Of a DNA stretch of 64,000 bases, positions 8,636 to 62,015 are shown one piece after another (the first letter of the stretch is position 1; each line of letters opens with the position of its first letter). The notes under the pieces were generated by a model. The model saw only the letters and a list, made by a program, of their open reading frames with translations. It was not told the DNA's origin and searched no databases. The DNA is taken from the NCBI GenBank assembly GCA_002245135.1, contig NGBS01000876.1, positions 124,001-188,000 of the forward strand, given 5' to 3'. The translations under genes were made by a program, and so were the position numbers. Source of the stretch: Proteromonas lacertae. Its lineage: Eukaryota; Sar; Bigyra; Opalinata; Proteromonadidae.

Positions 8636-8732
8636 CATTATTTTAACGTTATTTGGTCATAATTTACATATTTTTTTTGTAAAATTTGATTCACATTTTT
8701 TTCGTTAACCATTCTTTTAATTTCTTTTTTTA

Positions 8733-16600: not shown

Positions 16601-16938
16601 AAACAGGTGAAAAGAGAGTAGAGTTATTACAAGAATTATATAGATATTTTGGTAGTAAAAGTAATACTGTATTTGCCACATCAAAAGAGATAATCGATTG
16701 GATGAAAAATCCAACTCCTTTATCTCAAATGAGTTCCAAATCTGAATTTCAATGTGCTAAATCTTGGCCAACTACTAGTAGTAAAGAAATCTGTGATGGA
16801 ATTGATAATGATTTAGATGGAATTGTTGATAATGGTGATGTTCTTACGAAATGTTATTATCCATCTATAAATTTCGAGACATGTAATCCTAAATGTCCAC
16901 AAAATCCACCAGGTGAAGATTTAGTAAAGAAACATTAA
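13625..16938 (+). CDS. Secreted CE4 polysaccharide (chitin-type) deacetylase with cysteine-rich tandem repeats
   Basis: Three exons; introns at about 14111-14145 and 15797-15838. The signal peptide (KIILILSCLFIYSSA) is followed by an Ig-like beta-sandwich module with APFSLAGDNNG, then about 18 copies of a 28-residue repeat of the form CGDGxC-x4-E-x-C-x2-C-x2-DCG-x-C (14406-15790). The C-terminal catalytic domain is a NodB/CE4 fold: motif 1 FVTVTWDDA, motif 2 GHEIAQHTVSH (metal histidines), motif 3 GLRAPYL, then WEIPM and MFFHGAW. It ends with CDGIDNDLDGIVDNGD, a MopE-like putative metal-binding motif. All expected catalytic residues are present, so activity on chitin or a related N-acetylated polymer of a cell or cyst wall is likely. 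The ATG at 13625 is the first that starts the signal peptide. Confidence 0.88.
14406..15790 (+). repeat. About 18 tandem CGDGxC...DCGxC protein repeats
   Basis: About 75-84 bp units encoding CGDGVC/CGNGIC, ExC, xxC and DCGEC. Two units in the middle (about 14880-15050) are degenerate and longer. This cysteine frame is known from secreted bacterial and protist proteins; the six cysteines per unit suggest disulfide-linked mini-domains that hold the enzyme away from the surface or bind polymer. Confidence 0.9.
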
Positions 16939-17155: not shown

Positions 17156-20100
17156 TTATTCATCTTTAGATAATTCATTCTTTTTTTCTTCTGATATTCC
17201 ATCTAATATTATTTTTCTGATTGATGAAAATGTTTTAAGAAATGATTTTAATTCTGATTTATCTATATTTTCTTTCACTGTCATTGATAATTCATCATAT
17301 CTATAAAATACTTCTTTGTTTTCTTTCATTAATCTCAACCCTTCTTCATTTAATTCATTTCCTGATATATCCACATAACTTAACTTTCCATACTTTTTTA
17401 TACTTTTTATTAACATTTTTAATCCTTTCTCACTCATTCCAACATCTATTTATAACATAATATTATATTATATTCATAAAATACTTGAAAGATTTAATGA
17501 ATTATTATTAGCAAATTTATCAAAATATTTACATATTATCTCTATTCCTTCATCTCCAATTGGATTGCCATATATTGAAATATATTCTGCTGTTTTAGGC
17601 AAAAACTCTATTAATTCTTTCAATCCTTTTGAAGTAATTTGATTATTGGATAAAAAAACTTTCCAATAATTAATCTTCTTTATTAATGGAATAAAAGAAT
17701 CATTCAGATTCAAATCTATTTCATAACATATTTATATTATATACTTGATAAATCACATGAATATCTTTTCTTAACACAATAATTCAAATAATATTTCACT
17801 TCTTCATTTGTCCATGATGAATTTTTCATTTCTATAAATGGATATTCTTCTTTTTCTAATGATTTTGAACAAATTGATTTTAATCCATTCATTTTGATAT
17901 TATTTCCTTTCAGATCTATTATTTTACATCCTTTTATTGAATCTAATGCATTTGATAATAATATCACACTTTCATCATCAATTAATGTATTACTCAAAAA
18001 TATTTGATCTATATAACCTTCCAATAAAATATTTAAATGGTTTAGTAATACCTTAAATCCATTATTACCAATTGGATTATCTAAAAATACATTATAAAAA
18101 TTATACTATAAATTCTCATTTTACATACACTCCATCTTCTATTTTTTATCAAATATTCCATTCCTTCTGAATCAATATTATTATCATATAAATATAGTAT
18201 ATCAATGTATTTTTGAATATTCTTTAAACCATCAACCAAATATTTCAATCCAATTGAAGATAATCCCATTCCTATAACACAATAAATGATTATAGTAATA
18301 CTTGAACAATCAATATAATCTTTCCGATCACAACATATTAACAAATTCATATGTGGAGATAATATTTTCATTCCTTCATCTCCTATTTCATTTCCTTTTA
18401 CACTAAGATATGTAAGTCTTGTAAAATAAGACATATTGTTCATTAATACTTCCACACTTTTGTCTGTAAGTTTATTATCTAATCAATAGAAAAGCATCAA
18501 ATTATACTATCTAAATTTAGATATTGCATCTCTCTAAGTTCATTTAATCTAAATGAAATGAATGATGAGAAAAAAACATCATCAATATCTAAATCGCTAA
18601 GATGCAATCCATTACTATATCTGATGAATTTCATCAATTCAGGAATGTCTTTATCTATCAGCAATTCTTTATTTCTTTTAACATCAAAATCAAAATCAAT
18701 TTTTGAAATAGGAAATTTAGAGAATATGGCTTTCAATCCTTTTGAATAAATTCTATTATTATTTCTAATATCTATTCTTCTGAGATTTGGATATTTATAT
18801 AATTCTTTTGATAATAATATCATTGATTCATCATTCAATCTCATTTCAGAAAGGATTAATTCATTTTCTTTGCTGATTAACAAATACAAATATGGAATTA
18901 ACAGTTTAAATCCCTTATTATCAATTACATACTCTATTTCATAATAATCAATAATAAAATAACTAATACGATTAAGACAAACTTGTTTTAATTTCATGAA
19001 TAGAATTGATTTAACAAATGATTCAATAAAATCAGATGTTAGATTATATCCAGATAAATCTATTTCTTGAAGGTTTGATAACTGTTTTAAATATGATATA
19101 AATGATGAATGATGTTGAATTGGAATATCAACACTATCTAATTAAATATAAATTATAAAAATAATACAAAATCTGAGTTTTGTTGGATTGATTAGTTTTA
19201 TTATTCTGAAGAAATAATCTATTCCTTCTTCATAACAACAAATACTATTTGATTTAACATTCATTCTTATTTCATCTCTTTCAATATAAATAGATAAATT
19301 TAATATCATTTTATCTAAATAGCAACTTTTGCCATCTTTGCACTTATGATATACTTGTGGTATTATCATTTCTTTGATTCTTTCATCTAATGATTTTGTT
19401 AATAATATTGATAGAATTTCATCATTACATTTAACATTATAAATTGATAAAAGATATTTATGTATAACTATATTTCAAAAATTATAATTAATATACTATC
19501 ATCATTTCTATTGTAATATTTCTTTGGAAATAATATAGGAAAATGAAGCAATTTATTATCATCATTATATAACACTTCTTTTCTTTTATTATCTATCATT
19601 AATAAATAACTTTCATTTCTTCTAATTGTCTTTTTCAATAATAGAACTTTCAATTCTTTTAAACTCAATCTATCTTCACTCTTCACTTTCAACATTCTTT
19701 CTATCATTTCTTTCATTTTCTTGTTACTTTTTCTTTTAAACTGTATTTACATATCAAATATTATTCATTCTTTTATTCATATTATTATCTTCATTAAATG
19801 GTAATTTCTTGTTTATTATCTCATATAAAATACATCCAATTGACCAAATCACACTTTTCTCATTACATTCTAATCCATTCAACTCTTCTGGAGTTTTGAA
19901 ACAAATATCATATATTCTCAAATCTTCTTCTTTTCTTAGTAAGTTCAAGAATAAATCACATAACTTCATTTCACCATCATCTTTATATATCACATTAGAA
20001 CCCTTCAAATTACTTATCACTATTCCATATTCATTGAATATCATCAATATATCACAAATTGATAGAATAATTTTACATTTATCATCACTAGAAATGGTTT

Positions 20101-20487
20101 TATTTTGAATTAACCCCTCTAAATCTCGCATATAATACTCTCTTTCCAACATCATCATATTACACCCGATGATCTGTATTTCTGAAGGATAGGTACAAAA
20201 TGAACAATAATCTAACAGAAAACAATTATTTTCACTGAATTTCAATATCTTCTTCTCTTTAATTCCATTGGTATTCAACATTTTAACTACTTTGCAGTTA
20301 TTTTCATGTTTAATTACCAATTCTACTTCATTTTCATTCTTTTCTTTTCTTTCTTTGATCTATTACATATATAAATTAAGCATACTTCTAATTTCGGTAA
20401 TTTATATTTCAATATCTCTTCTATGTGATGATTTAACATTTCTGAAATTTGAGTCGTTTCAATTTTCTTTTTTCTTTCTTTTTTCAT
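17156..20487 (-). CDS. Pseudokinase-LRR protein A
   Basis: Minus-strand gene of about nine exons with 25-40 nt introns. The proposed start at 20487 (MKKERKKKIETT) leads into a kinase fold whose catalytic loop is ISNLKGSNVI and whose metal loop is CDLFLN, so both catalytic aspartate motifs are lost. Subdomain IX is intact (KSVIWSIGCILYEI). Leucine-rich repeats follow across several exons, with phrases such as GNEIGDEGMKIL, DNNIDSEGMEYL and NNQITSKGLKEL. Near 19720-19760 two single-base deletions are needed to match its paralogue at 28.0-31.3 kb (LICKYSLKE, then MKEMIERML), so it may be a recently damaged gene or carry sequence errors. Intron positions match the paralogue. A degraded copy of its 3' half lies at 62.3-64 kb. 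Confidence 0.65.
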
Positions 20488-20992
20488 TCATTTTACCATT
20501 TTTATTTATCATTCATCAACATTCATGATCACAACAACACTAATATCGTTACTGTGATGTATAACCACTTTTATTGATTTTTGCTGTTCTGATGTTTCTA
20601 TTCTCAGTTAATGTAAACTACATAGAATAGTTGGATTTTATATGATAATATTCAGAGTTTTAAACCATCTAGCTGTAAATTTCAGCAAAATATTTTCAAA
20701 CTTGTTTGATGTTTCAAAATAAATAGTCGTTTTTTGATTCAGTTTTTTTCTTTTTAAAAATTCAAGATTATAGAAGTTAAAAAACATGTATAAGTAATAT
20801 AAATATATTAAGATGTTGTGTAATTATTTTATTCAGGAAATATTTCAAAATAATATGAATATTTTATGTGATATTGTTATTTTATTAGTAATATCATTTT
20901 ACAAACAATGATTATGAGAATATTCTCAATTCTATTATTTTCTTTTTTTAATCATCAACTATTAAGAAACAATTCAAAAAACAACGATATTT
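20488..20992. other. Intergenic region, nothing supported
   Basis: Presumed 5' flank of pseudokinase-LRR gene A and 3' flank of the SMPD4-like gene. AT-rich, with no ORF or repeat worth calling. Confidence 0.4.
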
Positions 20993-23221
20993 TTATAATA
21001 TTAACTTGAATAACAATATTATTACTAATATAAATAACATATTTCGATAATCACCAAAAATTCGCAAATTTATTATTATATCTTCATTCTCTTCATTTCG
21101 AATATCACATATTATTCTAGTTATATATTCAGATATTATTATCAGAATTTCAACTATCATTTTATTCTCATATATTGTTATTGGCTTATATAAAGGATTA
21201 TTATGATATTTTATATTCATATTTCCTCGAATATATTCTCCATTTATCAACTTTTCTCTTTCATTCTCATTCATTTCATTATCTTCTTCATCATACAATA
21301 GATTCTCTTTATTTATTATACAATTTTCACTTTCTTCTTTTACTCTTCTTATTTCTTCTTCACTTATTTCAAATATATCATTTAAACAATTTGTTGATGG
21401 CTTTTCTTTTCTATCACTATTACGAATTAAACAGATTATTTTTATTGCCAATGATTTGTATTTACTTATTTCACACAAAAATTCACTATTCAAATTCAGT
21501 TTTTCATAAATTGAATGTAAATCACCAATTTTTTCATTCTCATTTCTTCTTATCATTTTTCCTATTTCTCTCAACATTTTCACTAAATCTTTGGTATAAA
21601 TCAAAGAAATATGCTTAAAAAATATAAAATAAAATATTAATATATACTTTTAAAACTACATCAATCATATTATAAGATCGATTATAATCTAATTCTCTTT
21701 TAATTCCTTTCAAACATTGACCTAATAACAAAATATAAAACTATTCGATAAATAAATAACACAATATACTGGATAATGATTCTCAATATAATATTCCCAT
21801 TCATTATTATATGATTTTCTTTCTTTTCTCATTATTTTCTTTGATAATACGGAAGCAGCTGATTGTAATGTTTTGGTTGGCGATGTTTTTATTGTTGAAG
21901 GAGAGGAAGATGGTTTTGATATTGTTTCAAAAGCATTTTTACTATATAATCTATCATTACAATTCCATGGTTCTAATAAAGATAACCAAATATCAACCAT
22001 CTATTCATAAATATTACAAGATGATGTATATAAAATACCATTAAATAGGAAATATTATCATTAAATTCACAGAATTCTAAACCCAATGAAAGAAACTCAA
22101 ATAATGGTTTTTCGATTAATTCTAATAACATATTCTCATCTATTCATTTATATATATATATATATTATAATTAACATAATAATACTCTTTTGACTTGTTA
22201 TTGTGTCAGATAATAAAAACACTATTAAACCAAATAAACCTTTTAATAAGTTCAAATTGGGACTATTGTAATTCTAATTCATTATATATAACAATTGTAT
22301 ATACATACACATAATGTGAATTTTTCATCAAAATATAAACTATTCTTATTATAACGATATATATTGTTTTTATTTAACCAAAATTCCATTATTCCATTTA
22401 TTAATTCGATTGAATATCGATATTTTTCATCAATATTTCTCACATCTGGCATATTCATATTTAACTTCAATTCTCGTCGGTTTTCAAATAAACTATTATA
22501 ATATTCTAAACACAAATTCGAATATATATCATTACAGATCATTGATACACTCAAATTATATTGACTTTTGATTTTTGAATCTTTATTTGAACAACATATT
22601 ACACTTCTATTACAATTATCACTTCCAAAATGTAAAAATGAGAATAAATAATATTCTATCATATTTAATGATAAATATTCACATCTTCCAGAATAAATCA
22701 ATGGAGGATTTGTTAAATAATAATATAATGAAGGTAATGGATTATTACTGTTATTCTCAAATATTTCTCTTGTTTTTAATGGTAAATTCTCTACATTGTA
22801 ATTGTAGCTAACAGAAGGAATTGAATTACTGTGTAATAAAGTGGATAATAAAGAGCTATCTTCATTATTCTTCAATAAACTAAACAATCTTACAAAATGA
22901 ACTGCATTACTCACATGATCACTCTTTCTTCTTTTTGAATCACATACACATTCACATTTATCTTCACTGATTCGATAATAAAAAGGAACATCACTATAAT
23001 CACACAAACGACCATTTCTATTCAACATTACATCTACAAATTCGGCATAGTATGTGTAGAATTGATAACTTGCATTTATTGAGCCAAAATAACCTAAAGG
23101 AGAGCTAAAAACTAGAAACTACACACTTATACGAAAATTCTTCTTTCATATAATCATTTATCTCTCGACAAATATCACCAACAGATTTACTTGATACAGG
23201 GATTGAAAAATCGTAAGGCAT
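20993..23221 (-). CDS. SMPD4 (neutral sphingomyelinase 3)-like protein
   Basis: Minus-strand gene of about seven exons starting at the ATG at 23221 (MPYDFSIPV). The clearest family marks are LSLNMIEYYLFSFLHF, like the L-N-x-x-EYYMF segment of SMPD4, then DIWLSLLEPWN, matching the conserved DIW-x-x-x-L-x-PW, and NHYPFYILLLGQCLKG across an intron. The last exon ends in a hydrophobic anchor (MLFILVIILLFKLIL), as expected for this C-tail-anchored ER/nuclear-envelope protein. Animal SMPD4 has been linked to sphingomyelin hydrolysis and nuclear-pore insertion. The sequence is divergent and some intron ends (for example GTGTATGTATAT at about 22300) are my reading. A Ser/Thr/Pro-rich linker (SKPSSSPSTIKTSP) follows the DIW segment. 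Confidence 0.65.
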
Positions 23222-27987: not shown

Positions 27988-30900
27988 ATGTTTTTCTTAA
28001 ATTCTTTTGCAGATGATATAATATCTTCAATATTATCTTCTGATATGAAAGTATTTTTGTTGATTTATTATTTTAGATAGTAGAAATAATTGAAAAGAGA
28101 GATACTGAAATTGATTTGCTAATAGTAAATAAAAATGATATGAAAATGATGAAAATAGTTAATATAGATGAAGTAGACATAATTACTATATTTAGGTTTT
28201 GTGAAAATAACTTATTATTGTTAGATTGTTGTAATTCTCTCATGTACATATCACAAATACAGTTTATCATGTGTAATATGATGGTTATAGAACAAAATTA
28301 CTATGTTAGAGATTTAGAGGACTTAATAAAGAGTGAATGTTCATTAAATGATGATATTTGCAGTATGATATTTTCATTGTGTAATAATTTGATGGTATTA
28401 AATGAATATGATGTAATGGTAGGTAATTTGAAGAGTAGTAACGTAATAATTGAGAATGATGGTGAAATAAAGATATGCGATCTATTCTTGAATGAGTTGA
28501 AAAAAAATGAAGATATGAGTATTTATGATATATGTTTCAAAAGTTCTGAAGAGTTGAATGGGTTAGAATGTGATGAGAGAAGTGTAATTTGGTCAATTGG
28601 TTGTATATTATATGAAATGATGTTTAAGAAATTACCATTTAATGAAGATGATAATATGAATAAAACCAAAGACAATATTCTCAGATGTAAATACAGTATT
28701 GATGTAGAATGTGACAATTCTATGAAAGAGATTATAGAAAGAATGTTGAAAGTGAAGAATGAAGATAGAATGAGTTTGAAAGAGTTGAGAAAAGAGATTA
28801 TAAAAATGAGTGAGATATTGAGAGATGAAAATGATTATCTAATTATATGTAAATCAAGAAAAAAATCATTCTTTAAAAACGATAAAATGATACTCACATT
28901 TCCTATTATATATCCACAAAAGTATTATCTCCAAAGCAATGAAAGAGGAAGTATATATATGTAATATGAAATTCTATTTTTAACATTTGAATAGTAATTC
29001 GAGATGCTTTTATACAATCTTATAACAATCAACCAAATGAAAGAAAACTGTCATTACTGTTGATGATGAAATTATACAATGAAGATTATGCAATATACAA
29101 TAAGATGAAATTTCAAATTAACCACAAATGTAATGAAGTACAAGAATGCTATTTAGATGAAAAGGTGTTTAACATTTCTTCTAATGTTAATGACAAAGAA
29201 ATAATCATAGTTAGTAAAGAGTCTATTTGTTTCTGTGAAGAAGGAATAAAATATTTCTTTAGAATCTTGAAATTAATCAATAAACCAAAGCTCTTATTTA
29301 GTATTTTTTCTTATCATTTACATTGAATTAGGTATGGTTGATATACCATTCAAACTTCAGTCATTTTTTTCATCATTTTTTTCACATTTATCTAATCTTC
29401 AAGTATTAGATGTTCAGAGAGGTGGTTTAACTTTTCGTTTTGTTGAAACATTTGTTAAGTCAATTCCATTTATGAAATTAGAATATGTTAATCTTTCAGG
29501 TATATATTTTACATTTAAATACTTTCTTTAGCTAATCCAATAGGTCCAGAAGGATTTAGATTATTACTTCCATATTTGCATTTGTTAATTAACAAAGATA
29601 ATAAAATGGATCTTTATGGAATGAGATTAAATGATGGATCAATAATCTTATTATCAGAAGAATTATGTAAATATCCAAATCTTGACAGAATTGGGCTTAA
29701 ACAAAATAGTAATATACAATGGAAAGGATTAAAAACCTTATTCTCCAAATTCCCAATTTCAAAAGTAGAATTTGACTTCAGAGGAAATAAAAAGTTATTG
29801 AATGATAAACACATACCTAAACTAGTTAAATACATTTATGAATTAAATGAATTAAATCTGAGCGATTCAGAAATTGATGATGAAACGTTCAAATCATTCA
29901 TGTCATTAAGATTAAACGAAATGAAAAAGGTCAAAAAGCTTGACTTGAGTTGTATATTTGATATTTCTCTATTATTATTTAGATAATAGATTAACAGATC
30001 GAAGTGTGGAAATACTAATTGACAATTTATCTTCTTTATCGAGTCTTACATATGTTAAACTTAATGAGAATGAAATACGGAGATTGTGGAATGATTATAT
30101 TATCTCAGCATTTACATTTAATAAAAGATTGCTATAAATGCGTTTACTGTTCAAGTATTATAATATTAATAATAACGTAATATTAAATAGATATGGGATT
30201 AACTTCAATAGGATTAAAGTATTTAGTGGATGGATTAAGGAGTATGAAAAGTAAGTATATCACACTTGATATAAGTGAAAATGATATTGATGAAGATGGA
30301 ATAGAATATTTGATGGATTATCAAAAAGAGAATGACTGTATTAGAAAGTTAGAAATTGATAGTATTATTATATTTTGTTTATTATTAACAGATAATCCAA
30401 TTGGTAATAAAGGATTAAGAATGATTTTAAACAATTCAAAGGTGTTAGTTTTCTTTACTTTAAATGTGAGTAATACTTCAATTAATGATGATAGTGTAAT
30501 GATATTAACAAAAATGATAGAAATGATTAAAGGATATACTTTTACAATAAATCTAAAAGGAAATAATTCAAAGATGAAAGGATTAGAAACCATTTGTTCA
30601 AAGTCGTTAGAAAAAGAAGAATACTCGTTTATAGAAATGAACAATCCCTCATGGACAAATGAGGAATTGGAATATTATCTTAATTATTGTATAAAAAAGA
30701 CTATAGGAGATTATAACTACGATTTTTCAAGTATATATAATAAATCATTTCTAATAAAATAGATTTAAACATTAAAGATTCTCAAATTTCACTGATTAAA
30801 CAGATTGATTATGAGTATCTTGATCTATCAAGTAATAGAATCACATCAGTAGGATTAAAGGAATTAACAGATTCTTTACAAGAAAGAGTAAAATATATAT

Positions 30901-31335: not shown

Positions 31336-33621
31336 TTATTGATATACAACCTTACAGTTGTTGATTAATCTATCTTTCAATACATTCCTCCATTTTTCAT
31401 TCATATTCTCTTTATAAATAATTAATTTCTTTAATTCATCTAAATGATTCACAATTTCAATAAATTCATCAATATTTGAAGATATTAAATGAATATCTAA
31501 AACAATATATACTAAACAACTATACATCTCAATTCTAGAATAAATGGATCTGTAATACAATAAAATAAATCTCTTTTCAGTGTATTTATTGGTAGAAGTG
31601 ATTTCTTAATTATTAAACCGTTTAACTTCGGTTTTTCTAAAGCAATATTAAAAAGAATGCAATAACTATTTATGTCAGAATTTAAATAGTATTCTGAACA
31701 TATTTCTATAAGAAACGAATAGTTATGTTTTATTTCATTTTTCATCTCTTTATCTTTTATACAGTATTTATTACTCTTCATCATATCCTTCACTTTGTTC
31801 ATCATTAAATAGTTTGGATGTTTGGAAATGATAAAATTCAATACTTTATCTGGAGAATTACATACTATTCTATTTCCAGATAATCGAATTTCCTTAAAGA
31901 AATGGTTAGATTGAATTAATTTTTCAACTCCATTTTTGGATATGAAATTATCTATATTTAATTAATTCAATAAACTATACTCTTTATGTACAATTCTGAT
32001 AAATTGTTGTTATAATATAAAGTTTCAACAATATAATCAATTGAATTATCAGTAAGGTTATTCTCTATAATATAAAAAAGAGTACATATTACACAGTTTT
32101 GACTGTATTTAAACCTAAATTTCTTAGGTAAAGTAGTTTATTCAATCCATCACACAAATATTCAACGCCATCATCGCCTATGATGTTTCCATGAAGAATA
32201 ATGTATCTCAAATAGGGAGTAGAAGAGAAACATCTTGATAAAGCCATCATATGATCAGATGTTAGATTATTCTCTATAATACATATATTAACATAGTTAG
32301 AATATACTTTGCATATATAAACCTCTTAAATTATGCAATGGTATGATTGATCTAATAAACTCTAACAGCGAATTACGATTTGCTCTTAAATCTATATTAC
32401 ATAATACAATATATATATATATATATATATATACATGGAAATGTTAATGAGTCTATTTTGTTCAATCTGTTTAAGATATGTGATATATTGTTAAGACTGT
32501 TTTCTGTTATTGGATTTTCTGAAACTCCAAATGATTGTAAATTAGTCAAACTACTAACAAATGGTAATAATTCATTCATATATTCATCAGAAAGATCATT
32601 ATCTATATTAATCAATGTATAATATTATATATATATTATACTAGATAAAGAAATAGTAACAATATCACTATATGAATGCAAAACAGTCTTTAACAAATCA
32701 ATAATCTTTCTATCATTCAAATTCACATCATCAAGTATCAATTGAGTTAAATTTACTGAATTAGAAAGACATGTATTAATAATACTATACACTGTATTAC
32801 AAGAGAAATTATTAACTATATAACAATAATAATGATATATATATACCACAATAATAGCAATATTTTAATTGTTTTTCATTCAATAATACCAACAAATCAT
32901 CAAGTACATCATCTGTTAAATCACAATTTTCAATTGACAAATCATCTAACTTTCTAAAATTGTGTTTATACTTCACCATATATTCAATTCCTTTATTTTT
33001 AATTGGATTTGCTATATAGATATATAAATATATGAAATAATACAATGAATTGCAAGAGAAGTAAATGACTTTAAACACGAAATATTTTCACAAAAGTTAA
33101 GTAATCCACTTTCTGTTATATTATTCTCTATTTTTTATATTATATAAAAAGAAGAAATATACCTGAAACAAACAATGAAGATAAATCTGGTAACTGTGAG
33201 AGATTATCACTAAAATCAATAAAACCATAATCACTAATATAATTTGAATCTAATTTCAACAACAATAGTCTAGATAAACAAGATAAATATCTATTTAGTC
33301 TAATCAAATTATTATCATCTAAACCAATTTGATTCAAATACAACTCATTCAAATTTGGAATGTTACTAAAATTCTTACATAATAATTCAATATATTTCCC
33401 AATTTTATTCTTATTTAATGATAATAGCTTTAAGTCTGGTAATTGATAATTATAAAAGAGTAATGAGATATTGTCTTGGGTAAGATTACAGTCTATTTAT
33501 ATAAAGTAATTAGACAATTATACCATCAATTTTTAAGTGTTTCATATGCTTATAATCTAATCCAATAAGTAGTTTATTCATATTTTTTGAATCACATAAT
33601 ACATCTATTTGTATATACAAG

Positions 33622-33658
<37 letters not shown>

Positions 33659-35874
33659 ATTAGTATTAAGGTTTCGATATTATGTAGATTAGTTAATACA
33701 TGGTAAAATATTAAAAATGAATTATTATCACTACATTCATAATCACATATATCAATTTCTTGACCATATACTGAATATACTAGTTTTAACAACCATTTAT
33801 CATTAACTGTCGTTAAAGAATGTAATAAATGAGTTTGAAATCTAACATAAGGACAAAACAAAAACATATTCATTAATAAAATGAAAATATTTATATCTTT
33901 CTTTGTATTAAACATTTCTATTATTTCTGTATACACATCATAGTTAAACATATTCTTCATTACGACTTTTGATGTTATTGGGTATGGAGAGTAGAAAAAT
34001 AATTTAAAAATATCAAATGATTGTATATCATTATTCCATATTTTTATATTCGGTAATTTGGTTATTATTCTTCTTAGTTTTAATACTCCTTTTATTGATA
34101 GATCATTCTTATACATATTTAAATGTTCAAGAGAATTAGTCTTTTTCAATAACCATGTTAAATAACAAACTGAAGAATCATCAATATGTGAATCTACATT
34201 ATATAAATAAATAAATAAATCACAATATATATATATATATATAATACTAGAGATATATAATTTCTGTAGTTTATCTAAATATCGGTAAAGTATTAATTAA
34301 GTGAATTAATCTTTTTACAGTCAAACCACTGTTTGAGATTTTTAATGACTTTAAACTGTAGAGTACTATTGAATGACACTTCATTATTATTCTTAAAAAA
34401 AGTTGATAAATAATACACACTATTTGAGAGATTCAATTTAACTAAACTAGAAAATCCACCTATTATTTCTATATCTCTATCATTAGATATTTTAGTATTA
34501 TAAAAATTCATTATTTCTGTCTTTTCTGTATTGATTAAATTTGGTAATATCAAATCTATTGGATAATTATTACTATTTTGTATTGTAAGGTTTTCAATTA
34601 TTCGTTTAACAATTGATATTTGTTTAATATTCTTCAAATACTTTACAGATTTCAATTCTATACTACTACTATCATGTTCATCTTTTTCATTGGTAGTTTC
34701 TAGTGTAATTGAATAAGGTGATTTATTAGTAGATATATAATCATAATAGTATAAACTATCTTCATCAAATATCTTTGATATAAATGTATTGATTATATTA
34801 GAATAATGATCATAATAATCCCAACTTAATTGTATTATAAAGCTCATTACTAAATCGTTATAACAACGAGATTTCCATTTATTAAGAAAATCTAATAATG
34901 AATCTATTAATAATAATAAGAAGAAGATGATATACTTTTATTATTAATTATGTTTTTGTAATATATTCCATTGTATACATCATAGTAATTATTACCTAAC
35001 AGTAATGCAAATCTTGGTGAATATTCTATATAATAATAATAATAATAATAATATACTTGGTTTATATTCATTACTATAGAGTCTATATCCAATTTTTTGT
35101 AATTGAATTATAAATTCATTGATTGAACCTATTCTTCTCTCATTATTCTCTATTAAATTCTTTAAAAAGATATAAAATGGGGAATATTTATATTGATTTA
35201 TTATATCATTAATTTTATCATTAAATACTGGTGGATTTCCAGTCAAAAGTCTATAAACAATACAGCAAATGCTCCAGATATCATCTTTATCACAATATTC
35301 ACCATTTTTAATAATATTTAAACTGCAGTAAAACAGAGAATCAAAATCTAAATTTATAGTATCTTCTATTAGATATTGACTGTAATCTGTGATTTTGTAG
35401 GTATTATCATTAGTTAATAGGACATTATTTGGAGTTATTCTACCGTGATAGAGACCTATATCATGTACTGATTGTAATTGTGAAGATATATCCTTCAAAA
35501 TGTGAAATAATATGTAAGAATCTTCTTCTTTTGATATTTTATCAATACATCCAAATGAGTAGTATGGTGAAATGATTTGTAATTTGTGATTTATTACCGT
35601 AAAATAATCATTTTCAAGAAATCCACTATACTCTTTTATTTTATTCACATTTTCAAACTATATATGTATTATATTTGATAATACTAATATTATATAATAC
35701 AAATTCTTCTATATTTTGTTTTATTTCTATAATTTTGAGAAATCTAATATCATCAGCTTCAATTGAGGATATTTGAAATGATCGTTTGTTCTTATTAGTA
35801 TTTAAAACGTTTAAAACCTATGACTAGATGAATTAGTGATATACTTCGTAATTCGGAGGTATTAGCATCTTCAT
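31336..35874 (-). CDS. Pseudokinase-LRR protein C
   Basis: Minus-strand gene with many short exons. Start proposed at 35874 (MKMLIPPNYEVLNVLN), where PPNYEVL parallels PPNYDIL of gene D. The kinase C-lobe is clear: LYHGRITPNNVLL (His kept, but Arg where the catalytic Asp should be), ITDYSQYL in place of DFG, DDIWSICCIVYRLLTGNPP. LRR exons run leftward to the stop at 31336-31338, with repeats such as LSCLSRLLLLKLDSNYISDYG. Introns include long (TA)n tracts at about 32404-32434 and 33627-33657. I have not resolved every exon between 31.8 and 34.3 kb; frame joins there are uncertain. Confidence 0.6.
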
Positions 35875-50192: not shown

Positions 50193-53100
50193 ATGAATAA
50201 GATAGCATTTATATCGTTTTATTTGTTTATAAATTGTATTTTTTGTTATAAAATTGGGTATTTATATGAACAGAATAAACCAGAAGTAAATATTTTGGAA
50301 TTGGATACAGATTATAATAATTACTTAAATACTGCTAATCCAGATAAAGTTCAAATAGAAATCGTAGGACATGAATATGATGGAAGTGAAAATTCTATTA
50401 AAGAGAGTTTAAAATTCTTTCATGATGAATCTATCACTGTAATATATGTGTATTGCACTGAGAATATTTATAAAACAAATGAGACGGTGTTGCAGAGTTA
50501 TGGAATTTTATTTTGGTGTTTAAATCCATTAGGAACAGGAGAATGTAGAAGATCAATAGTAGCAGGATCTTCATATGCTGCAACAATTGAATCATGTATA
50601 ATAATTATTCTATATATATATATATTTTTTTTTTTTTTAATTAGTATCTGCATTATTGATTTACTATGGAAAGCCAAATTTAATATTCTTAGGATATTCT
50701 GAGCAGTTAATAGATGATTATTATGAGAGTCACATATTCGAAATGGTTAAACAATATGGTTTAAACATTGCATTAAATGAAAGAATTAATGATGCAAATA
50801 AAACAGATTTTGATAATTACATTGATACATATGTATTTAAACAGGAATATGTAGATGAAGGTATGTTTATATTAACCAGTATCAATGATATTACATTAAT
50901 TAATAAATTAATTGCTAAAAGAAACAATAATCATGATGTAGAAATCATTTTGATGACTGGAAGTGTTACTCAAAAAGACATTAAAGATAGTATTGTTTTA
51001 GATGATTATTTTGTGTATTATATGACTAATTATTGGCCAGGAGTTGCTCCTAATAACCCAGATGATTATTATAATGATCATTACACTACTGCTGCTGGTA
51101 ATACAAACACTGCTATTTCAGATGTTAAACCAGAAATTGCTGTTATTTCGTATAATTATATTATTATTTATGTATAGAATGGGTATTTTAGATATGCTTC
51201 ACCAAGTAACCAATCAAATCGATTCAAAAGATGTGTTTTCTTACATGTCTATATCTTATAACAATGAATTTGATTATCCAGGAGGGAAAATAGTATTAAG
51301 TGAAACTCAATATTTGTCAACATCAATGTATATTGTTGAAATGCATAATGATGCTGGTAATAAAAAATATTCACAATATTCTCCAATTGGAATGAATATT
51401 AAAAGTCAACCGATGGAAGTTTATGGTGTTATTCCACTGCAAGAATGTTCATTTATATCTAATCCAATTGATGGCTTAGTTGATAATGATATAATTACTG
51501 TTCTATTGATTAATAATATTCATAATTCAATGAAATATAGAGGAATTCATACAAGATTGGCATTTAAACAATTGATTTCTTATATTAATAATAATGAAGG
51601 TGGATTATTAGATAAACAGATTTATGCATTGTTTTTGGATGATGATGATAATAATATGTTAGAAAAAGTATAAATTTCTTCATAATTCTATGTTTTTTTC
51701 TTTTCTTTTATAGTTGAAGAATATGATTGAACAATATTCTCTATCGGCAATATTTATATCTTCAGAAAATGATATTAGAAACACAATTATTAACTGTGAT
51801 GGAATAAAAAATAATAATAACATCATGTTCTTTGATATTGAACCAAATGAAGGTGAAAACTGTAATCATGATATTATATTTGTATCTATATTTATATATT
51901 ATATATTATATATTATATAGGGTAATATGATGAATAATAATTTCGCACATGAAGCACTTCGTTATTTTCAAAAGACTAATGTTGATAGTGTTTTCTTAGT
52001 TGGTTCAATAGAAACATTTGGAAAGAACACAAAGAAGATATTAAATGATTTATTCATAAAGAATGGAATGAAGATAATAGGTAACTATGATATGACTAAA
52101 ACGAATGATTCATCTTATTTAATTCAGACTTTAGAGTATTATGCTGGTAATTATACGAATGGAATGTATGTGCTTATAACTGCAGAACAGAAGTACAATG
52201 ATAATATATTTAAAGCACTAAAAGCTGCTAATTTTACAAAAACAAATGGTTGGTATATAATGTCAGTTACGTTGGATGATATTCAAATACATGAAATTGG
52301 AGGAGAATATGTATTAATTTTGATATATATATGTATATATATTAATAGTTAAGTGGTTATATGTATTTGGCTCACTATTTTGATTCAATGAAAAATTCAC
52401 TTTTAGAAGGAATAAAACTTTCAATAAAAGAACAGACAGGTGTAGATGAAAAGCCAATATCCAATCATATTGCAGTATTATGGAATATGATGAATGTCTG
52501 GAAAGAAGTATATTTTATTTATTTATTTTATTTATTTAAATTAGTCTGTTGATTTATGTAGAAACTCAACTCCAGCAGCTTATAAAGAATTTATCTATCA
52601 TCATCCGCTTTCTATTAGTCCTGGAGGTGTTTATACTGTTAATTATAATGGTTATACTGATTTCATGGCAAGAGAAGCAATAATTACATATAATCCTACA
52701 TCAAAAGAAATAGGTAATATTATAGTATATGAAACTTCATTTACACAGTCATCCAATATATTTTCAAATAATTCAATCACTTGCAGTTGGAAAGATCCAA
52801 GTAATCCAATAAAACCCATACATAATTACAAGATTGGTATATTATTTGATATTCAAACTACACAAGGATTTATTCATTACGAAAATGTGCAAATGATGGC
52901 TGAAATACTGAATGAAGAAGGAGGTATAAATGGTGTAAATGTTGAATTAATCACTCCCAATACATCAATGAGTAATTATTTAGAGAATATAACAGCAATA
53001 ATTGAAGAAATGAATAGTGATCCTGATTTAATTGCATTTATTGGTACATCTTCACCAGAAGAAAGAGAATTAGTAAATCCAATATTAAAGGATATTGATA

Positions 53101-56100
53101 AATTATTATATGTGTTTCTAAGAGGAGAAGGTGAAGTTAGTTACTCTAATATTGTATTTATGAATACTATTCCATCTCAATTAATTGAATATCCATTTAC
53201 TGTTATTGCAGGTAGATCTATTGGAGCTAATAAGATATTATTATATGATGAAAATATACCATTTTCTAATGCAAGTTATGTTTATCTCAAAGCATTAGCT
53301 GCTCAATTGAATGTTCAATTTTCTGAGACAATAAAAGTAACTGATACTACAGATTATGATGTTTTAGTTGATGGTTGGAAGAGTGGTACATGCAAAGATA
53401 ATAAATGTTATATATTATTGTTAATTAAACAAAATACTGAGAAACTATTCAACTCTTTTTATACTAAAATGGATGCTGATAAACATAAAATTGTAACATT
53501 TGATATGATCAAAAGTGATATTAATGATGTAGCTAATCCATTAGTTCTAGATAAACATTATTATATCAGTAGTTATTTATCAACCAGTAAACTTGCTGCA
53601 AATACAATCATTACAGATTTAGTGAAGAAATATAAAGGAGAACCTTCTAAACTGTTAAACGAAGAAACTGTAAGTGTGTATAATATTTTAAATACATTAG
53701 TGTCTGTATATGAGGAGATTGATGTGAAATCATCAGCAGATAACGTGAAATTGGTATTATATGCTACAAATATTGATTCACCACAAGGAACAATGAAAAT
53801 AAATGAGAATAATATTGCTTATTCATACAGTAGTATTATTTTATTGGATGATAAGAGAGGTGGTAGTACTTATTCAATTTATCCATTATCAATTGAACCA
53901 GTTGTTTATTCTTCATTAGTATATTATCATATATTATTTTTTAATTATTTATTTTTTCAATAGTTGAATGATAATGTTTATTATGAAGTAAATTATGCCT
54001 TAGGTCTTGTAAAAACTGAAGAACAAATCATTGGAGTTGCTTATATATTGGATCTATCATCAGAACAAGGTTATAATAACTATCTAATTGGTAAATATTA
54101 CATTGATAAGAATAACGCATTAGGAAGAATAAAGAATAGAAAAATAGTAAGTGAAATTCACAATTGTCCAAGTGATTCAGATAAAGCTGCTGGTTTAATA
54201 ATTAATTTACATCAAAGAGGATTTGATATTATCATAGGTGGATGTAATCCAACAGTTAGAAAATATATCAGAACATCAATTGAATCTTTAAACATGATAT
54301 TGATTTATACTGGAAATAACAATGGTAGAGAATGTTCTAAGAATATATTTTATGCTTCAAGTTCACCATCTCAACAAATATATAATTCTATTTTACACTT
54401 TTATTGGAAAGAAAATAGAGACTTTGTTTTTTTATATCAAAATAGAGATATTTGGTTGGATATGATTAATTTAGTTAAGACAATGTCAGTTGCTCATAAT
54501 TACAATATCAAATATGAAAAGGTATTATCATCTGGATTGACTAGTCAAATAATCACATTAATTATAGATGAAATAATGTCAATATATTCAGAGGGAATTC
54601 CTATCTTCATTATTGTAGAAGCTGATTATATTGATATGATAATGAAAGCTTCCAATAGTGGTGAAAAGAGAGATTTATTTCCAGTTTATGCTTTCCATCA
54701 AGATGGTGTTAAATATAGTAAAGGAACAGAGAATAATTATGTTTATACAGCCTATATTTCAGACGATACAAATAAAGAATTTGTGGATGAATTTCATACA
54801 TTAATGGGAAAGGACCAAGATCCAACTTATTTTGATGTATTATCAGCATCAGTAGTAATTTGGTTGTGTGAAACATTAGGAAATTCAAAATCACTTAGTA
54901 TAGATGATATTAGAAGTGAATTCTATAAAACAGAAACAGATACACCTTTAGGTAAAGTCATATCAAGAAAGTGCAATCATATTTCACAGAAACAAGTGTT
55001 TGGTGTAGTTGATGAAGATGGTATTATCAGATTGAATGAAATAATTGCACAATCAGCTCCAGGTGATCCTTGGAGAACAGATTCTGATTTTTATCCATAC
55101 ACATTATGTGATTGGTTATCTGAAACAAATCCAGGTGAAAAAGTAGTATTAGATACTTATTATATTGGTATTTTATTCCCTGATAAATCATATTATAAAA
55201 GAAACGCTTTATTAGTGAATCAAGCAATTAGAGCAACAACTGAAGCTATTGATTCTTATAGTAAAGACTTCTTATTATCTTCAATTATATTACCTTTAAC
55301 ATCGAATTATAGTAAAATACCTGAATTAGTGAAGAGTTATATGGATAAATATAATATATCTTTATTTGTAGGTGGTTGGGATACTGAATCAAGAAATGCG
55401 ATTGATTATGAAATGAAAGAAATCAACAGATTGTTAGTATATCCCTATAATTATGAAAGTAGAGAGTGCTTAAGTCATACTTTATATTTAGGAACACCGT
55501 TTTCATCTTATTATGTATTTGGCAATTGGATTTTAGACTATGATTCTTCATCTGTTATTATATTATATTCAAGTTCTACAACATCTAGAAAAATACATGA
55601 ATCTTTGTTAAGTCAATTTGAAGTATATTCAATAACTACAACTTATGAAGCTGAAATTCCCTTAGAAATTGATAATTTAGAACCAATCATCTCGTTAATT
55701 GGTAAAATATGTCCAGATGGTGCTTTGATAGTGAATTTAATGGAAGGAACTTCCAATGAATTATTATTCACGGCTTTAACAAGTTTGAAAATGAAACCAC
55801 CAACATATGTTACAATTAATTTTAATATAGATGCATTGATGTTGAATAAAGAGTATGTAGGTCATTATTATTGGTTTAATTCTGATACCGTAACTGATGA
55901 AGCTTTTATTAAGCAATATAATGATTTAAATACATATCACAAAGGTGTAATGGTGTCTGTAGTTGTTCAGTCAGGAATGTCTGTAGATATATTCTATAAG
56001 TGCATGAGAGATATTGCAGATCCATCCACTATGAAGATGTTACAATATTTCATTGATAATTCTATTGACACTTATACAGGAACAGTGAAATTTGAATTAA

Positions 56101-59100
56101 ATAATCACTTGCCAAATACAGTGAATGTTAAACAGGTTATATTGAATGATGATGGTTCTATTAGTACAACTATAACTGGTCATGATACAATGACTTATAC
56201 ACCAGATCCATTTATGTCATTAGCAAATGATGAATCTTATTATATTTGTAATTTTGATACAAATTATGAAAAGAAAGAAGTTGAATATTTGTATTTAGGA
56301 GTTTTGTTAAGTATGACTGGTATTTATTCAAATTTGTATAAGTCAATGTTAGCTGGTGTATTAGTAGCTGTTCGTAAGTATTATGATGATAGATTATTGA
56401 CACTGAATAAGAAATTACAAATCAAAATATCAGATTATAGAAATGATTTGTCCAATATTGAGCCAATAGCAACAGAATTATATTCTGATGATAGTGTAAT
56501 AGGTATTGTTGGCTGTGTTTATGCAGAATGTAAAGATATTGTCCAACCAATATCTACTAAATATGGAAAACCATTCTTATATCCAAGATCAACAGCTGGT
56601 CAAGAGTGTAACAATGACACAATTTATGGTGGAACTGTTCCAGGTCAAGTAAATCCAAGATTATTATTGTATTTAATTAGTTTAGATTATAATCAAACTA
56701 TATTCTTTATTGGTGATACAACAGCAGAAACTGAAATAAGATATCAAATCTTAGAAGATACAACAAGTGGTTTATTAGCTAAAGGTGATAGAATTAATGT
56801 AACATCTGATAATGATATAAATATAGGAAATCTATCTGAAATATTGAGTAATAATTATGGTGGTATTATTGTCACATCTTTATCTGTGTCTTATATGAAA
56901 GTATTGTTAGAGAGATTAACAAATCTGTTAATGGATACTACAAAGTGGGTAATCGTCAATTTGAACTTAGAATATGAAGAGTTTAAAGATATACCCAATA
57001 GTAGCAAGTTAAATTTGAAGATATTATCCAATTATTTCAATGATATTGATGTAAAATATAATGATGATATAAAACTACTATGTGATCATTATTCTTTATC
57101 ACAATATATCACTTCTACTATTGTTAATACATATATTATTACTTCATTATATGTAAATGCAATTGAAGATACAAATTCAACAGAATGGGATAAAGTTCGT
57201 TTTAATATGTATAACAAAAACATAGATAGTGGTACAACAGAAGTTACATTTGAATCAAGTCATTATCTTACTTCACCATTCTTTGTTGCTTCTTATAATA
57301 ATGATATAAAAGACTTTGAAACTATTTATTTCAAATATGATACACCATCACCAAATCCTTGGAGTTGGAATATTAAAGAGACTGATGATTTAAGATGTGA
57401 TTTTAGTGATCCATCCCATGGTGAAAAATATCATGTAAATGTTAGAAAGATCTTATTATTAGCTGAAATAACAGGAGCAAATTCCTTATATAGTGATGGA
57501 GTTATTGAAAGTTTTCAATTAGCAATTGATGACATTAACAGTGAAAATGGAATACAAGGTAATACTATAAAAGCTGATATTTATGATACACAGTCTAATG
57601 CAGATATTTGTGATAGTTATGTGAGTGATTATATAGCAAAGAATTCTCCTTTAGTTATTGTTACATCAGTTACTCAAAAATGTATGTCAAATATATTAAG
57701 AACTTTAAAATCAACAAGTACAATGCTGTTGAGTGTAAATGATCCAGATTTTGACTTCTGTAGTAGTGTTATTAGTTTTGGTAGTGCAAATCCAAGTTTA
57801 TATATGAATATATTCAATATAGTAAGAAATAGATTAGATTATAAACAACATTTATTGATTTATAGCACTCAATTCAGAGTAGGTGAATTTTTATCGTTTT
57901 ATTATGATCATTATGTTTCATTAGTCTATTCATTTAAATATACAGTATTAGATGAAAATGAATTACATAAATTCTTATTAAGAGCTGATATGGAATTAAC
58001 TACAATCATATATATTGCAGCATCAGCTGATGAATATGAAGTAATTCATAAACATTTAGATGGAATGAATATGATTGAACCAATATTTAGAAGAATAATT
58101 TTAATCAACTTTGATGTTATTAGAAGTAGAGGATTTAGAGAAATTGAAGGAGTATATTTCTATAACTCTCAAAATCCTGATAATGATGAAATAAATTATC
58201 AATATATAACAAATATATATCAAAGAATAGATAAATCATCACCAATCACTGATTTAATGGAAAGAACTTATTCAATGATAATGTTATGGTTTAACGCGTA
58301 TAGAAATGCAGATTCATTAGGTTTAACTCCAATGAAAAATCAAATGTATATCACAAAATACCATTCCCCAGAAGGAAGTATTTATTTTGGTAAAAACCTA
58401 TTCATGGCTCGAACACCTAATTTGAAATATATTGATAAAGATGGTAAAGAAATTATAGTTCATAGAAGTTATGAACCAATAATTCCAGATCCATATATCA
58501 TGCAGGATGATGCAGAGAGTAAGATAATATGTGATATATCCTCAGGAGGTATTGGTGAGAAAGGTTATTATGAATCTTATTTAGTTGGTATTATTTTAAG
58601 CATAACTGGTGATTGGGCTGAATATGAAATGCCAATTTTAGATTCAGTTATTTTAGGGATTAATTATATGAATGAGAATGATATGTTGTTAGGAAAATAT
58701 TTAAGTTTTGCTTTATATAATGCCAATTCAACCAATGATAATTATGTTAAATTTATCAATCAAATTATTGATGAAGGAAAAATCACTTTTGTGTTTGGAG
58801 GATATTTTAAAGAAACTTATGAAGTAGTCGAACCATTAGTATTTAATTCACCAATTTTCTTCTTTTACACTGGTTTAAATTATAATACAAGTTGTTCTAG
58901 CTAATGTAATAGTAGGTAATATTCATCCAACTCAAATGGCTGAAGCTGTATTAAGAAGGATTATTACCAAATACAAACACTGTAGTAATGTTGTCAAGTA
59001 CTGATTATTATTCAAAAAACTTTTCAACTGCTATTGCTAATAGATTAAGAAGTGTGTCAATAGTTGCTGATGATATTACATTCTTAGATAACACACAACA

Positions 59101-62015
59101 GATTGTACAAAGAATAAAAACAACATTAAGAGAAAGTGGTTATATTATTAATATAATATCAAGTGAAGAAGAGAATATAAAGTTTTATAATTTAATGTGT
59201 GAGAATGAGATTGTTAGTCCAAATTATATAATTATTAACATATTAATGGATGAAACTATAATGAGGAAATTGCCAATCAAGTGTGTGAAAGGTCATTACA
59301 TGATGTCTAGTTATTTTGAGAATTTAGGTTCCTCCTTATACAATACAAAATCTGTTATATCTATAGCTGATTCTTATAATCAAAAATTGCATGATAGAAT
59401 TGGAGATAAGATATATATTAATAATATAATAGAGAATGGTTATTCCATAGTAAGACTTTGGTCTGTAATTATACAAAAAATGAATACTTTTGATGTAAAG
59501 AGTTCAAAATCAACAATTTATGGAATTCCAGTAGAAGTTCCATCAGGTTCAATAGAATTGACAACTAATAATATATTAAGTAGAAAAATATACAGTGGAA
59601 CAATAGATAGCAATTATAATATAGTGATTGATTGGGCAATAAGTAATGAATATGAAGCTTCAATATATGATCAATATGACAGTAATAGCGAGTTTATTAA
59701 TTATTATTGTGACATTACTATTAGTAATCATTCTGTTTTGTATAGAAATCCAATTAGGATTGCATTTATTCATCAAAAAGATGATGGATTCTTTACTGAA
59801 ATTTATAACAGTATTATTCAAGATATGACACTTAAAGAAATTAATAATAATGGTGGAATTATTAATAGATATATATATGGAAAACATTTCTTTGTTTCTA
59901 ATTCACAGATTTATATTACATTGAAGAAAATATTAGAATCAACTGAAGAATATAAATTAATTATGGGAGGTTTGTCTCCTCAAGCCAAAGAAGAAATTAG
60001 TCGTTATATAGTCAGTAACAACATATTGTATATGTATACTGGAAGAGATGATGGTAGTGAATGTACAGTAAATACAATACATACTGGTAGTAGTATTACT
60101 CAAAAAGTGCCAAGTTTAATTACTTATTTAAAAACAATTGGATTGTCTAATGTTTTGGTGATTGGTGGATTAACAAATAGTACTTCAGTAGAAGCTGATT
60201 ATTATAACACACAAGCGAAGAAAGCTGAATTTGATGTAAAACAACCCATATTTATAAGTCCATATTTAGAGAGTAATATACAGAGATTTTTAGATGAAGT
60301 TGCTGATATTTTAGATGTTCAAGGTAATTTAGTTATTATTAACTTGTTTAATCCTACAGAAAATAATGTATTTTTAAAGCCTTAAATGAAAATGGATTTA
60401 TATTCAATAGTGTTACAATGGTATTAATTAAATATGATCCATATGACATAGATTCATCATTAACAAGTTCATTATTTGGTTATTATATAGCAACAAGTTA
60501 TTCAAATACAATATCTAATACACAATCCAATACATACCAATACAGTGTACAAGCTGAGTTTAATAGTGAGATAGAAATATCAGAGACGTTAGAAAACAGT
60601 TATTCGTCAATTTATTTCTATAAAAGTGCAGTGGAATATGCTAGAGATCAAACTGATGAAGAATGGCCTGGAACAAATTATATTCGAATATCAATGAAGA
60701 ATGTTATAACTGATGGTCCAAGTGGTACTTATAGTTTAGAAACTAACAATTTTGTTACTAAGAATATATACATATTTCGAATAGGAAATGGATTTATGTT
60801 ACAAGTTTATCCAAAGAATGGTAAAATCGAAAGTGTAGAAGCTCCAATGGTATATAAATCTGAATCTGAATGTACATTTGGAAAAGAATTGAAGTATTAT
60901 GATTTTGATTCATCTGTAGTAACAGTGGTTTATACATTGATGATAATAAATGTTATTTTAATAAGTGGAATATGTTTCTTTGTAATCTATTTCAGACATT
61001 CTCGAATAATCGTTAGTTCTAGTCCGATATTTTTAGTTTATACTTGTTTTGCATTAATATTACTATCAGTCGAAGGTATAGTATTTACATTTCGCCCAAC
61101 AAATGATATAATTTGTGGATTAAGAAACTGGGGCTTAGCTGTTTCGGTGTTATTTTTATTCAGCATATTATTTAGTAAAGCTTGGCGAATTCATAAATTA
61201 TTTAATAACAAACAATTACAAAAAGTAAAAATCTCGAATTGGATGTTACTAAAGATGATAGGAATGATGGTAGGTGCAGAGATAGTATATTTAGTAATTT
61301 GGTGGGTTGTTAAACGAAGTGAAACTGAACTAAGATACAGTGTTGGCTTATCATCATTTTTAGAAGATGTTTATATTTATCAATGTACAACAAATGATGT
61401 GTTTATGTATTTATATATTTTTTCTATATTATATTATTTAATAACAATAGAGGAATTCAATTAGCTGCATTTTTCATGTTGTTCTTATGGGGTGCGAAAT
61501 TAGCTTGGGGTGTAAGAAATGCAAGTTCTGATTTTAATGAATCAGTTTCATTAGCTTCAACAATTGCTGTAATGTGTATTTATAATTATATTATTTTATC
61601 ATAAATAGTATTAATTGGAATAGTATTTGTTCCGTTAGATTTTTTAATGGAAAGTGAGCCATCATCATTGGTAATATTTCGATGTTTTGGAATAGAAATA
61701 GGTTGTTTAGCAATTCAAATATTACAATTTGGTTCAAAAATCACTTACATTTATCATAATGAAATGACATCTACTACTGGTTCAGCATCAATGGGTAGTG
61801 GAAGTGGAAGTGCTAGTAGAAGTGGAAATAGTAAAGGAAAGAGATCTCAATCAGTGAATTTAGCTAATAAAGGTAGATTTGTAGTTAGTCCTGATTTATT
61901 ATTTGAGAGTGATATGGCAGTTTGTTCAATCTCTTTACCTGAGTTATTTTATGATGAAGGTGGAGCTGGTCACAGTGCTGCTAATTCGATGGTAAAATCA
62001 GTAACAAAGATTTAA
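50193..62015 (+). CDS. Giant class C (GABA-B-like) GPCR with nine tandem UrtA/AmiC-type Venus-flytrap domains
   Basis: About 3,820 residues in ten exons; introns near 50596-50644, 51150-51177, 51668-51713, 51883-51920, 52311-52348, 52508-52544, 53919-53963, 61407-61450 and 61576-61608. Exon 8 alone is 7.4 kb. A signal peptide (NKIAFISFYLFINCIFC) precedes nine ligand-binding domains. Each opens with a YxIGxLx strand and closes with a P-x-G-x-x-x-x-x-x-N segment. Residues about 3480-3740 are a 7TM_3 domain with ICGLRNWGLAVSVLF, the GABA-B-like KAWRIHKLF after TM3, GAKLAWGVRNA after TM5, and FGSKI after TM7. The Gly/Ser-rich tail ends SMVKSVTKI. Three one-base frame breaks (about 58902, 58975-58999 and 60378) interrupt the last part, but homology continues across each. 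Likely a plasma-membrane nutrient or amide sensor; ligand unknown. Confidence 0.9.
50250..60900 (+). repeat. Nine tandem periplasmic-binding-protein-like domains
   Basis: Approximate domain starts: 50250, 51490, 52828, 54030, 55157, 56283, 57451, 58582 and 59755, a period of 1.12-1.25 kb or about 385 residues after splicing. Domains 4 and 5 show the UrtA pattern best: IIGGCNPTVRKYIR with LIYTGNNNGRECSKNIFYAS, and FVGGWDTESRNAID with VYPYNYESRECLSHTLYLG. Closing motifs include DSPQGTMKINENN, TPLGKVISRKCNH, YTGTVKFELNNH, SPEGSIYFGKN, VPSGSIELTTNN and GPSGTYSLETNN. Sequence divergence between units is high, so the array is old. Confidence 0.88.
60914..61750 (+). other. Seven-transmembrane class C domain of the giant receptor
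   Basis: Seven hydrophobic segments begin with VVTVVYTLMIINVILIS, SPIFLVYTCFALILL, LAVSVLFLFSILFSK, LLKMIGMMVGAEIVYL, LAAFFMLFLWGAKLA, STIAVMLLIGIVFVP and IFRCFGIEIGCLAIQIL. Two introns fall inside: before TM5 and in TM6. The pattern resembles GABA-B rather than mGlu receptors; there is no long cysteine-rich domain before TM1. Confidence 0.88.

Follow-up and report, generated by a model that had tools for sequence, protein, structure and literature searches.

A class C G-protein-coupled receptor with nine consecutive UrtA-type flytrap modules, one member of a large family in Proteromonas lacertae

A 64,000-nucleotide stretch of the Proteromonas lacertae genome (contig NGBS01000876.1, positions 124,001 to 188,000; hereafter the window, whose own numbering is used below) carries at 50193..62015 a gene for a class C G-protein-coupled receptor (GPCR) composed of a putative signal peptide, nine Venus-flytrap modules and one GABA-B-type seven-transmembrane (7TM) domain. 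Class C GPCRs are understood as dimers in which each protomer carries a single flytrap. Both hallmarks of the class are present here: a 7tm_3 seven-helix domain (Pfam E=4.7e-25) and a large flytrap ectodomain N-terminal to it, with nine flytraps where the usual number is one. An earlier note, made from the sequence alone, had described nine UrtA/AmiC-type flytraps followed by a single GABA-B-like 7TM; Pfam and module comparison with a relative (P0001) agree with this count and order, a search of solved chains agrees with the GABA-B-like 7TM, and sequence search and predicted fold agree with the UrtA/AmiC type. P0001, which comes from another, public assembly, is an intact open reading frame (ORF) of 3886 residues on a 13.8-kb contig, in which Pfam finds nine Peripla_BP_5 stretches and a 7tm_3 domain (E=5.6e-37). 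Position profiles place nine matched modules in order ahead of the 7TM within this one ORF; since the profiles were built from the window gene and P0001, that position match holds by construction, the Pfam count being independent. As the intact P0001 ORF matches it, the nine-module architecture does not depend on the window copy, and the same domain order, which the earlier note had proposed to look for elsewhere, thus recurs.

The gene limits given earlier are correct, with an ATG at 50193 and a stop codon at 62013-62015 on the + strand. Ten exons are separated by nine GT..AG introns of 28-49 nt, and a single frame runs from the ATG to ~58902; the spliced protein is ~3.82 thousand residues long, with X placed at three single-base frame breaks. 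In this protein (0-based numbering) the modules start at residues 18, 406, 797, 1182, 1559, 1936, 2321, 2699 and 3092 and the 7TM pre-linker at residue 3467, giving spacings of 388, 391, 385, 377, 377, 385, 378, 393 and 375 residues before the 7TM. The period of about 385 residues reported earlier therefore stands as an approximation, the computed spacings ranging over 375-393. The features of the gene are as follows.

50193..62015, + strand: whole gene, nine-module class C GPCR (frame reading, Pfam, module comparison)
50193..50246, + strand: hydrophobic N-terminus, putative signal peptide (by eye; P0001 and paralogues start similarly)
50247..51487, + strand: flytrap module 1, containing introns 1-2 (comparison with P0001, without a Pfam match of its own)
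50596..50644, + strand: intron 1, GT..AG, 49 nt, in module 1
51150..51177, + strand: intron 2, 28 nt, in module 1
51488..52820, + strand: flytrap module 2, containing introns 3-6
51668..51713, + strand: intron 3, 46 nt, in module 2
51882..51920, + strand: intron 4, 39 nt, in module 2
52311..52348, + strand: intron 5, 38 nt, in module 2
52508..52544, + strand: intron 6, 37 nt, in module 2
52821..54020, + strand: flytrap module 3, containing intron 7
53919..53963, + strand: intron 7, 45 nt, in module 3
54021..55151, + strand: flytrap module 4
55152..56282, + strand: flytrap module 5, whose pocket is the most UrtA-like, though altered
56283..57437, + strand: flytrap module 6
57438..58571, + strand: flytrap module 7
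58572..59746, + strand: flytrap module 8, with frame breaks near 58903 and 58954
59747..60870, + strand: flytrap module 9, membrane-adjacent, with a frame break near 60373
60871..61740 (3' limit approximate), + strand: 7TM domain (7tm_3 match 60901-61434, remainder in the last two exons)
61407..61450, + strand: intron 8, 44 nt, within the 7TM
61576..61608, + strand: intron 9, 33 nt, within the 7TM
61741..62015 (5' limit approximate), + strand: cytoplasmic tail, Ser/Gly-rich, and stop

An uninterrupted 1646-residue ORF at 53964-58901, which runs from the end of module 3 through modules 4-7 into the start of module 8, matches Peripla_BP_5 at E=1.2e-100; the six Pfam stretches found in it are HMMER pieces and do not equal modules. 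The profile check suggested in the earlier note thus recovered both Peripla_BP_5 and 7tm_3, and left five of the ten scanned pieces without a match, namely those of the last exon and of the greater part of modules 1 and 2. Modules 1 and 2 were identified by position-matched comparison with P0001. Recent tandem duplication was rejected as the origin of the array, because same-position modules of the window gene and P0001 (21-38% identity) are closer than neighbours within the window gene (11-18%); off-diagonal pairs between the two proteins share 11-19%. From module 1 to module 9 the identity to P0001 is 22, 25, 26, 29, 24, 34, 28, 34 and 38%, followed by 53% in the 7TM, so that conservation climbs from the distal tip toward the membrane.

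Could distinct flytrap genes and a 7TM gene have been merged in the reading? Single long frames in members of the family leave this explanation practically no chance of being right. Four relatives came out of a protein search, and the 3886 residues of P0001 span all nine modules and the 7TM. In the paralogue L012 one ORF of 3196 residues begins within module 2 and continues through modules 3-9 to the 7TM, and in C283 an open frame of 3645 residues covers the 7TM together with nine module matches by a generic profile. Separate genes were therefore rejected for the receptor family, and chance is excluded because P0001 and L012 carry their arrays and 7TM in single ORFs. The claim that the window array is one gene appears sound, as judged from its own frame continuity together with the long ORFs of its relatives. 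Since it is 77-87% identical to the paralogue C830a (L023) over residues 557-3833, P0001 is by sequence a close relative from another assembly, which could be one more paralogue or the orthologue from a related organism. When relatives with a single flytrap were sought, by a search that covers only proteins with short exact words in common, two distant proteins were the sole result: P0005 and P0006 (Podila, 24% identity over 48%).

In the last third of the window copy the frame is broken by single bases at three places that the earlier note did not mention, two in module 8 (near 58903 and near 58954) and one in module 9 (near 60373), and no near-identical second copy of 58500-60700, unbroken or otherwise, was found in the genome assembly. 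Were the breaks real, the window copy would be a decaying pseudogene. We think this improbable: the remaining exons are open and the introns clean, and C830a likewise has two frame changes (in modules 2 and 6) that leave no room for an intron, where P0001 is intact. This comparison favours assembly errors, short of proof. Three copy pairs, each compared over part of the gene, have ratios of nonsynonymous to synonymous substitution (dN/dS) of 0.06, 0.31 and 0.47; as all lie below 1, the receptor genes look constrained.

The modules are predicted to have the type I two-lobe fold of bacterial periplasmic binding proteins such as UrtA and AmiC. UrtA is their relative at E=1e-45 to 1e-48, and structure prediction, also proposed earlier, places the modules close to it with template-modelling scores (TM-scores) of 0.82-0.84. 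They share with these proteins sequence, predicted fold and the two UrtA cysteines, the first kept in 116 and the second in 94 of 129 aligned modules; they differ in being arranged in tandem and fused to a 7TM, and in not keeping the urea-contact residues of UrtA as a set. For the 7TM, the nearest solved chain is GABA-B2 (GABBR2, E=2e-29), and GABBR2, GABBR1 and GPR156 outrank the metabotropic glutamate (mGlu) receptors. Like GABBR1 and GABBR2, the receptor runs from a flytrap through a short linker to the 7TM, and like them it has no cysteine-rich NCD3G domain (none in L012 and P0001 at Pfam E<=0.001). GABA-B receptors, however, have one flytrap of the ANF type, whereas nine modules nearest to UrtA stand here, and for this reason we do not file the receptor as GABA-B. 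The fold match to the GABA-B flytrap is also weaker (TM-score ~0.65 versus 0.84 for UrtA), and GABA-B chains are absent among the 16 matches listed in the module search. A model of modules 8 and 9 with the 7TM can be aligned to GABA-B chains across 714 columns (E=1.2e-22), and the model of L012 has seven long helices, with low confidence in that part. In a model of modules 4-6, structural matches spanning residues 1-641 would imply lobes shared by neighbours; this is likely a modelling artefact.

The window gene is one member of a large receptor family in which module number and order are fixed, a point absent from the earlier note. The genome (50.2 Mb in 1181 contigs) contains 132 7tm_3 matches, which merge to 122 loci; some of these appear to be duplicates (e.g. 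C134 and C1000) or fragments, so the number of genes is smaller than that of loci. At least 81 of the 122 have a match to the module 9 query ending no more than 1.5 kb upstream, at least 70 a match to module 6 (with either unit query) 2.6-5.2 kb upstream, and at least 64 have both. The mode of the module 6 distance is 3.5 kb, the length of three modules. Within 11 kb, at least 88 of 122 loci have one module match or more, as against 4, 1 and 5 of 122 in controls shifted by 20, 40 and -20 kb. The other 34 are without a module match among the matches listed, and include the array-bearing C283 as well as L025 (C994). By eye, the ectodomain of the latter (C994:250751-260750), a class C 7TM in which no flytrap was found, is filamin-like and epidermal growth factor (EGF)-like.

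Module order was scanned in 20 stretches, each of at most 10 kb around a 7TM hit, with one profile per module position. Chain-ordered, position-matched modules precede the 7TM in 18 of them and are uncertain only in weak matches; L022 and L025 gave the 7TM alone, and some positions went undetected in L010 and L028. Eleven of these loci were extended by 2.5 kb in the 5' direction. In eight (C356a among them) positions 1 to 9 and the 7TM follow in order, position 1 being sometimes represented by weak pieces only. C139 and C244 have eight modules and a module-length upstream stretch that opens with a hydrophobic segment, and C283, the most divergent array, has nine by the generic profile, of which modules 1 and 2 score just 12 and 14 bits, with its sole two position matches in slots 5 and 8. 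All 11 extended arrays thus fit nine, if the first module of C139 and C244 may be inferred from length. The constant nine argues for a defined assembly, whether the chain would serve as a sensor or as a rod.

Our preferred reading, which we hold with moderate confidence, is that of a class C GPCR of a large family whose nine UrtA-type flytraps would form an ordered sensor chain and which would work like a GABA-B receptor. We envision that module 9, which a short linker connects to the 7TM, would transmit its closure or rotation to that domain, probably within a dimer, and that the 7TM would pass the signal to a heterotrimeric G protein. The outer modules would relay their closure states to module 9. 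Different small molecules are probably the ligands of several modules, with urea an unlikely one throughout.

The pockets bear on this directly. The urea site of Prochlorococcus UrtA has nine lining residues, and hydrogen bonds to urea are made by S122, Q144, Y190 and N246 (PMC10392092). Across the 129 aligned modules, compared with the contacts of UrtA rather than those of AmiC, 94 share none of the four, 32 a single one and 3 a pair; none keeps more than two. Urea or an amide as ligand, as for the bacterial proteins that the earlier note named, was rejected on these residues. It is accordingly very improbable that the array is an avidity device in which all nine modules bind one ligand, urea or a short amide, as the nearest solved relatives UrtA and AmiC do. 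Pocket residues vary by position, and position 5 comes closest to UrtA in its surroundings, the other positions having residues of their own. At position 5, D/N replaces Q144 and E/D replaces N246 in 16 of 16 modules, in surroundings with W120 (14/16), S/T at 122 (12/16), Y/F at 141 (12/16) and E146 (13/16). These two replacements suggest that position 5 would take not urea but another ligand, polar or positively charged. Pocket sites stand above the column background at position 5 (fraction of random sets reaching it, 0.033) and at position 2 (0.011, four rows), both values being uncorrected for the nine positions tested.

The loss of the UrtA contacts also has a structural interpretation, in which the outer eight modules would serve chiefly as a spacer or as an adhesive rod, with the flytrap fold as a rigid repeat and ligand binding lost from most of them; such a rod would hold module 9, or a distal adhesive tip, off the surface. 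Besides the absence of any module with more than two of the four bonding residues, pocket conservation that does not exceed the rest at seven of nine positions and the strongest divergence in the distal modules fit this interpretation. From a plain spacer, however, one would expect a variable copy number and the swapping of units, and both number and order are fixed in the 11 extended arrays; position 5, moreover, retains a conserved, altered pocket. We regard the rod, in either form, as unlikely, though as deserving real weight.

Several observations weigh against the ordered sensor chain itself. Pocket sites do not stand above the column background at positions 1, 3, 4, 6, 7, 8 and 9, and several modules may for that reason bind no ligand, which speaks against asserting strongly that all nine do; the alignment near UrtA Y190, F192 and N246 is itself unsure at 13-22% identity. 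Whole-chain superposition on GABA-B is poor (TM-score to target 0.42, root-mean-square deviation 28), and the model of modules 8 and 9 with the 7TM is of low confidence (predicted local distance difference test, pLDDT, 68; predicted template-modelling score, pTM, 0.52). The 11 extended arrays were selected by us and not at random, and some weak matches fall outside the chain order, namely several in C139 (one at 5 bits) and C244 and a single one in L028. Finally, the window copy has the three frame breaks described above.

A more far-reaching version of the sensor-chain reading, which we put forward tentatively and at appreciably less than even chances, is a position-coded nine-slot chemoreceptor: a protist lineage would have fused bacterial flytraps of the urea-binding type into a chain of nine, each slot with its own identity, and expanded the product to a sensory family of perhaps 80 loci or more, with one protomer integrating several different ligands. 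If this is true, a dimer would hold eighteen sites. Nine modules are kept in number and order while same-position identity drops to 20-40%, which raises the questions of how closure signals could travel from flytrap to flytrap and whether many inputs can be integrated by a single GPCR protomer. The architecture also suggests that eukaryotic receptors acquired a domain from a bacterial transport-type binding protein independently of the ANF type.

The PBPb domain has the type II fold, and the bacterial sensor kinase EvgS reportedly carries two flytrap modules. Searches with receptor terms in an open-access library, which lacks most subscription journals, found no eukaryotic receptor with tandem flytraps, and tandem flytraps appeared there only in bacterial sensors; this agrees with the earlier note, to which no described receptor of this architecture was known. 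Bacterial CdgH (two PBPb domains) and EvgS resemble the present receptor in feeding tandem flytraps into one signalling module and differ in their cyclase or kinase output and, for CdgH, in having two modules (PMC5431781, PMC8174306). Anaerobic gut fungi likewise have many class C GPCRs whose binding domains are of bacterial type; these are type II sugar-binding domains or pectin-lyase folds, in N-terminal domains of 200-1600 residues. The authors of that study found no ANF domain and, unlike here, no tandem flytraps are mentioned in the text consulted (Seppala et al. 2016, PMC5168858). The dictyostelid Grl receptors are also class C GPCRs expanded within a protist lineage, but have an ANF/BMP-type domain or none recognised, and a tandem array is not described in the sections available (PMC10445921). 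The same holds for tandem flytraps in the class C repertoire of choanoflagellates and their relatives, within the available text (PMC12716839).

Genes for candidate signalling components are present in the genome: G-alpha gave 12 matches, strong at five loci, of which two have similar scores, and the regulator of G-protein signalling (RGS) domain gave 85. RGS matches form clusters, partly in one open frame, at C371:35555-37924, C85:159889-162376, C633:46605-48155 and C36:15317-17545; in C371 five lie in one 939-residue frame, as if RGS domains were tandem-arrayed too. At C1118:51837-52937 on the - strand, a weak, sub-cut-off 7tm_3 match and an RGS match share a 687-residue frame, a possible class C 7TM-RGS fusion.

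In a tree of the RNA polymerase III subunit RPC2 (30 rows), the genome groups with Blastocystis, one NCBI record and one EukProt record (100/100) on long branches; its placement directly next to Blastocystis has little support (81/47). Tandem ribosomal DNA repeats of ~7.65 kb carry the 18S gene (L030:965-2710), which matches the Rfam model end to end; its start presumably resembles that of Blastocystis. The 18S sequence and the RPC2 tree led to the rejection of an anaerobic gut fungus as host, and the sequence evidence was best read as that of an Opalinata-like stramenopile. At L030, N stretches flank the 18S gene on both sides.

Elsewhere in the window, 8721-10788 encodes a protein kinase domain followed by leucine-rich repeats, and similar-looking kinase or leucine-rich-repeat frames lie at 18497-21649, 28077-28964 and 33592-35657; Pfam scans of these frames covered 8721-10043 and 28077-28961 only. 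At 14165-16938, a long Cys-rich run of CGDGxC repeats, itself without a Pfam match, is followed by a polysaccharide deacetylase domain.

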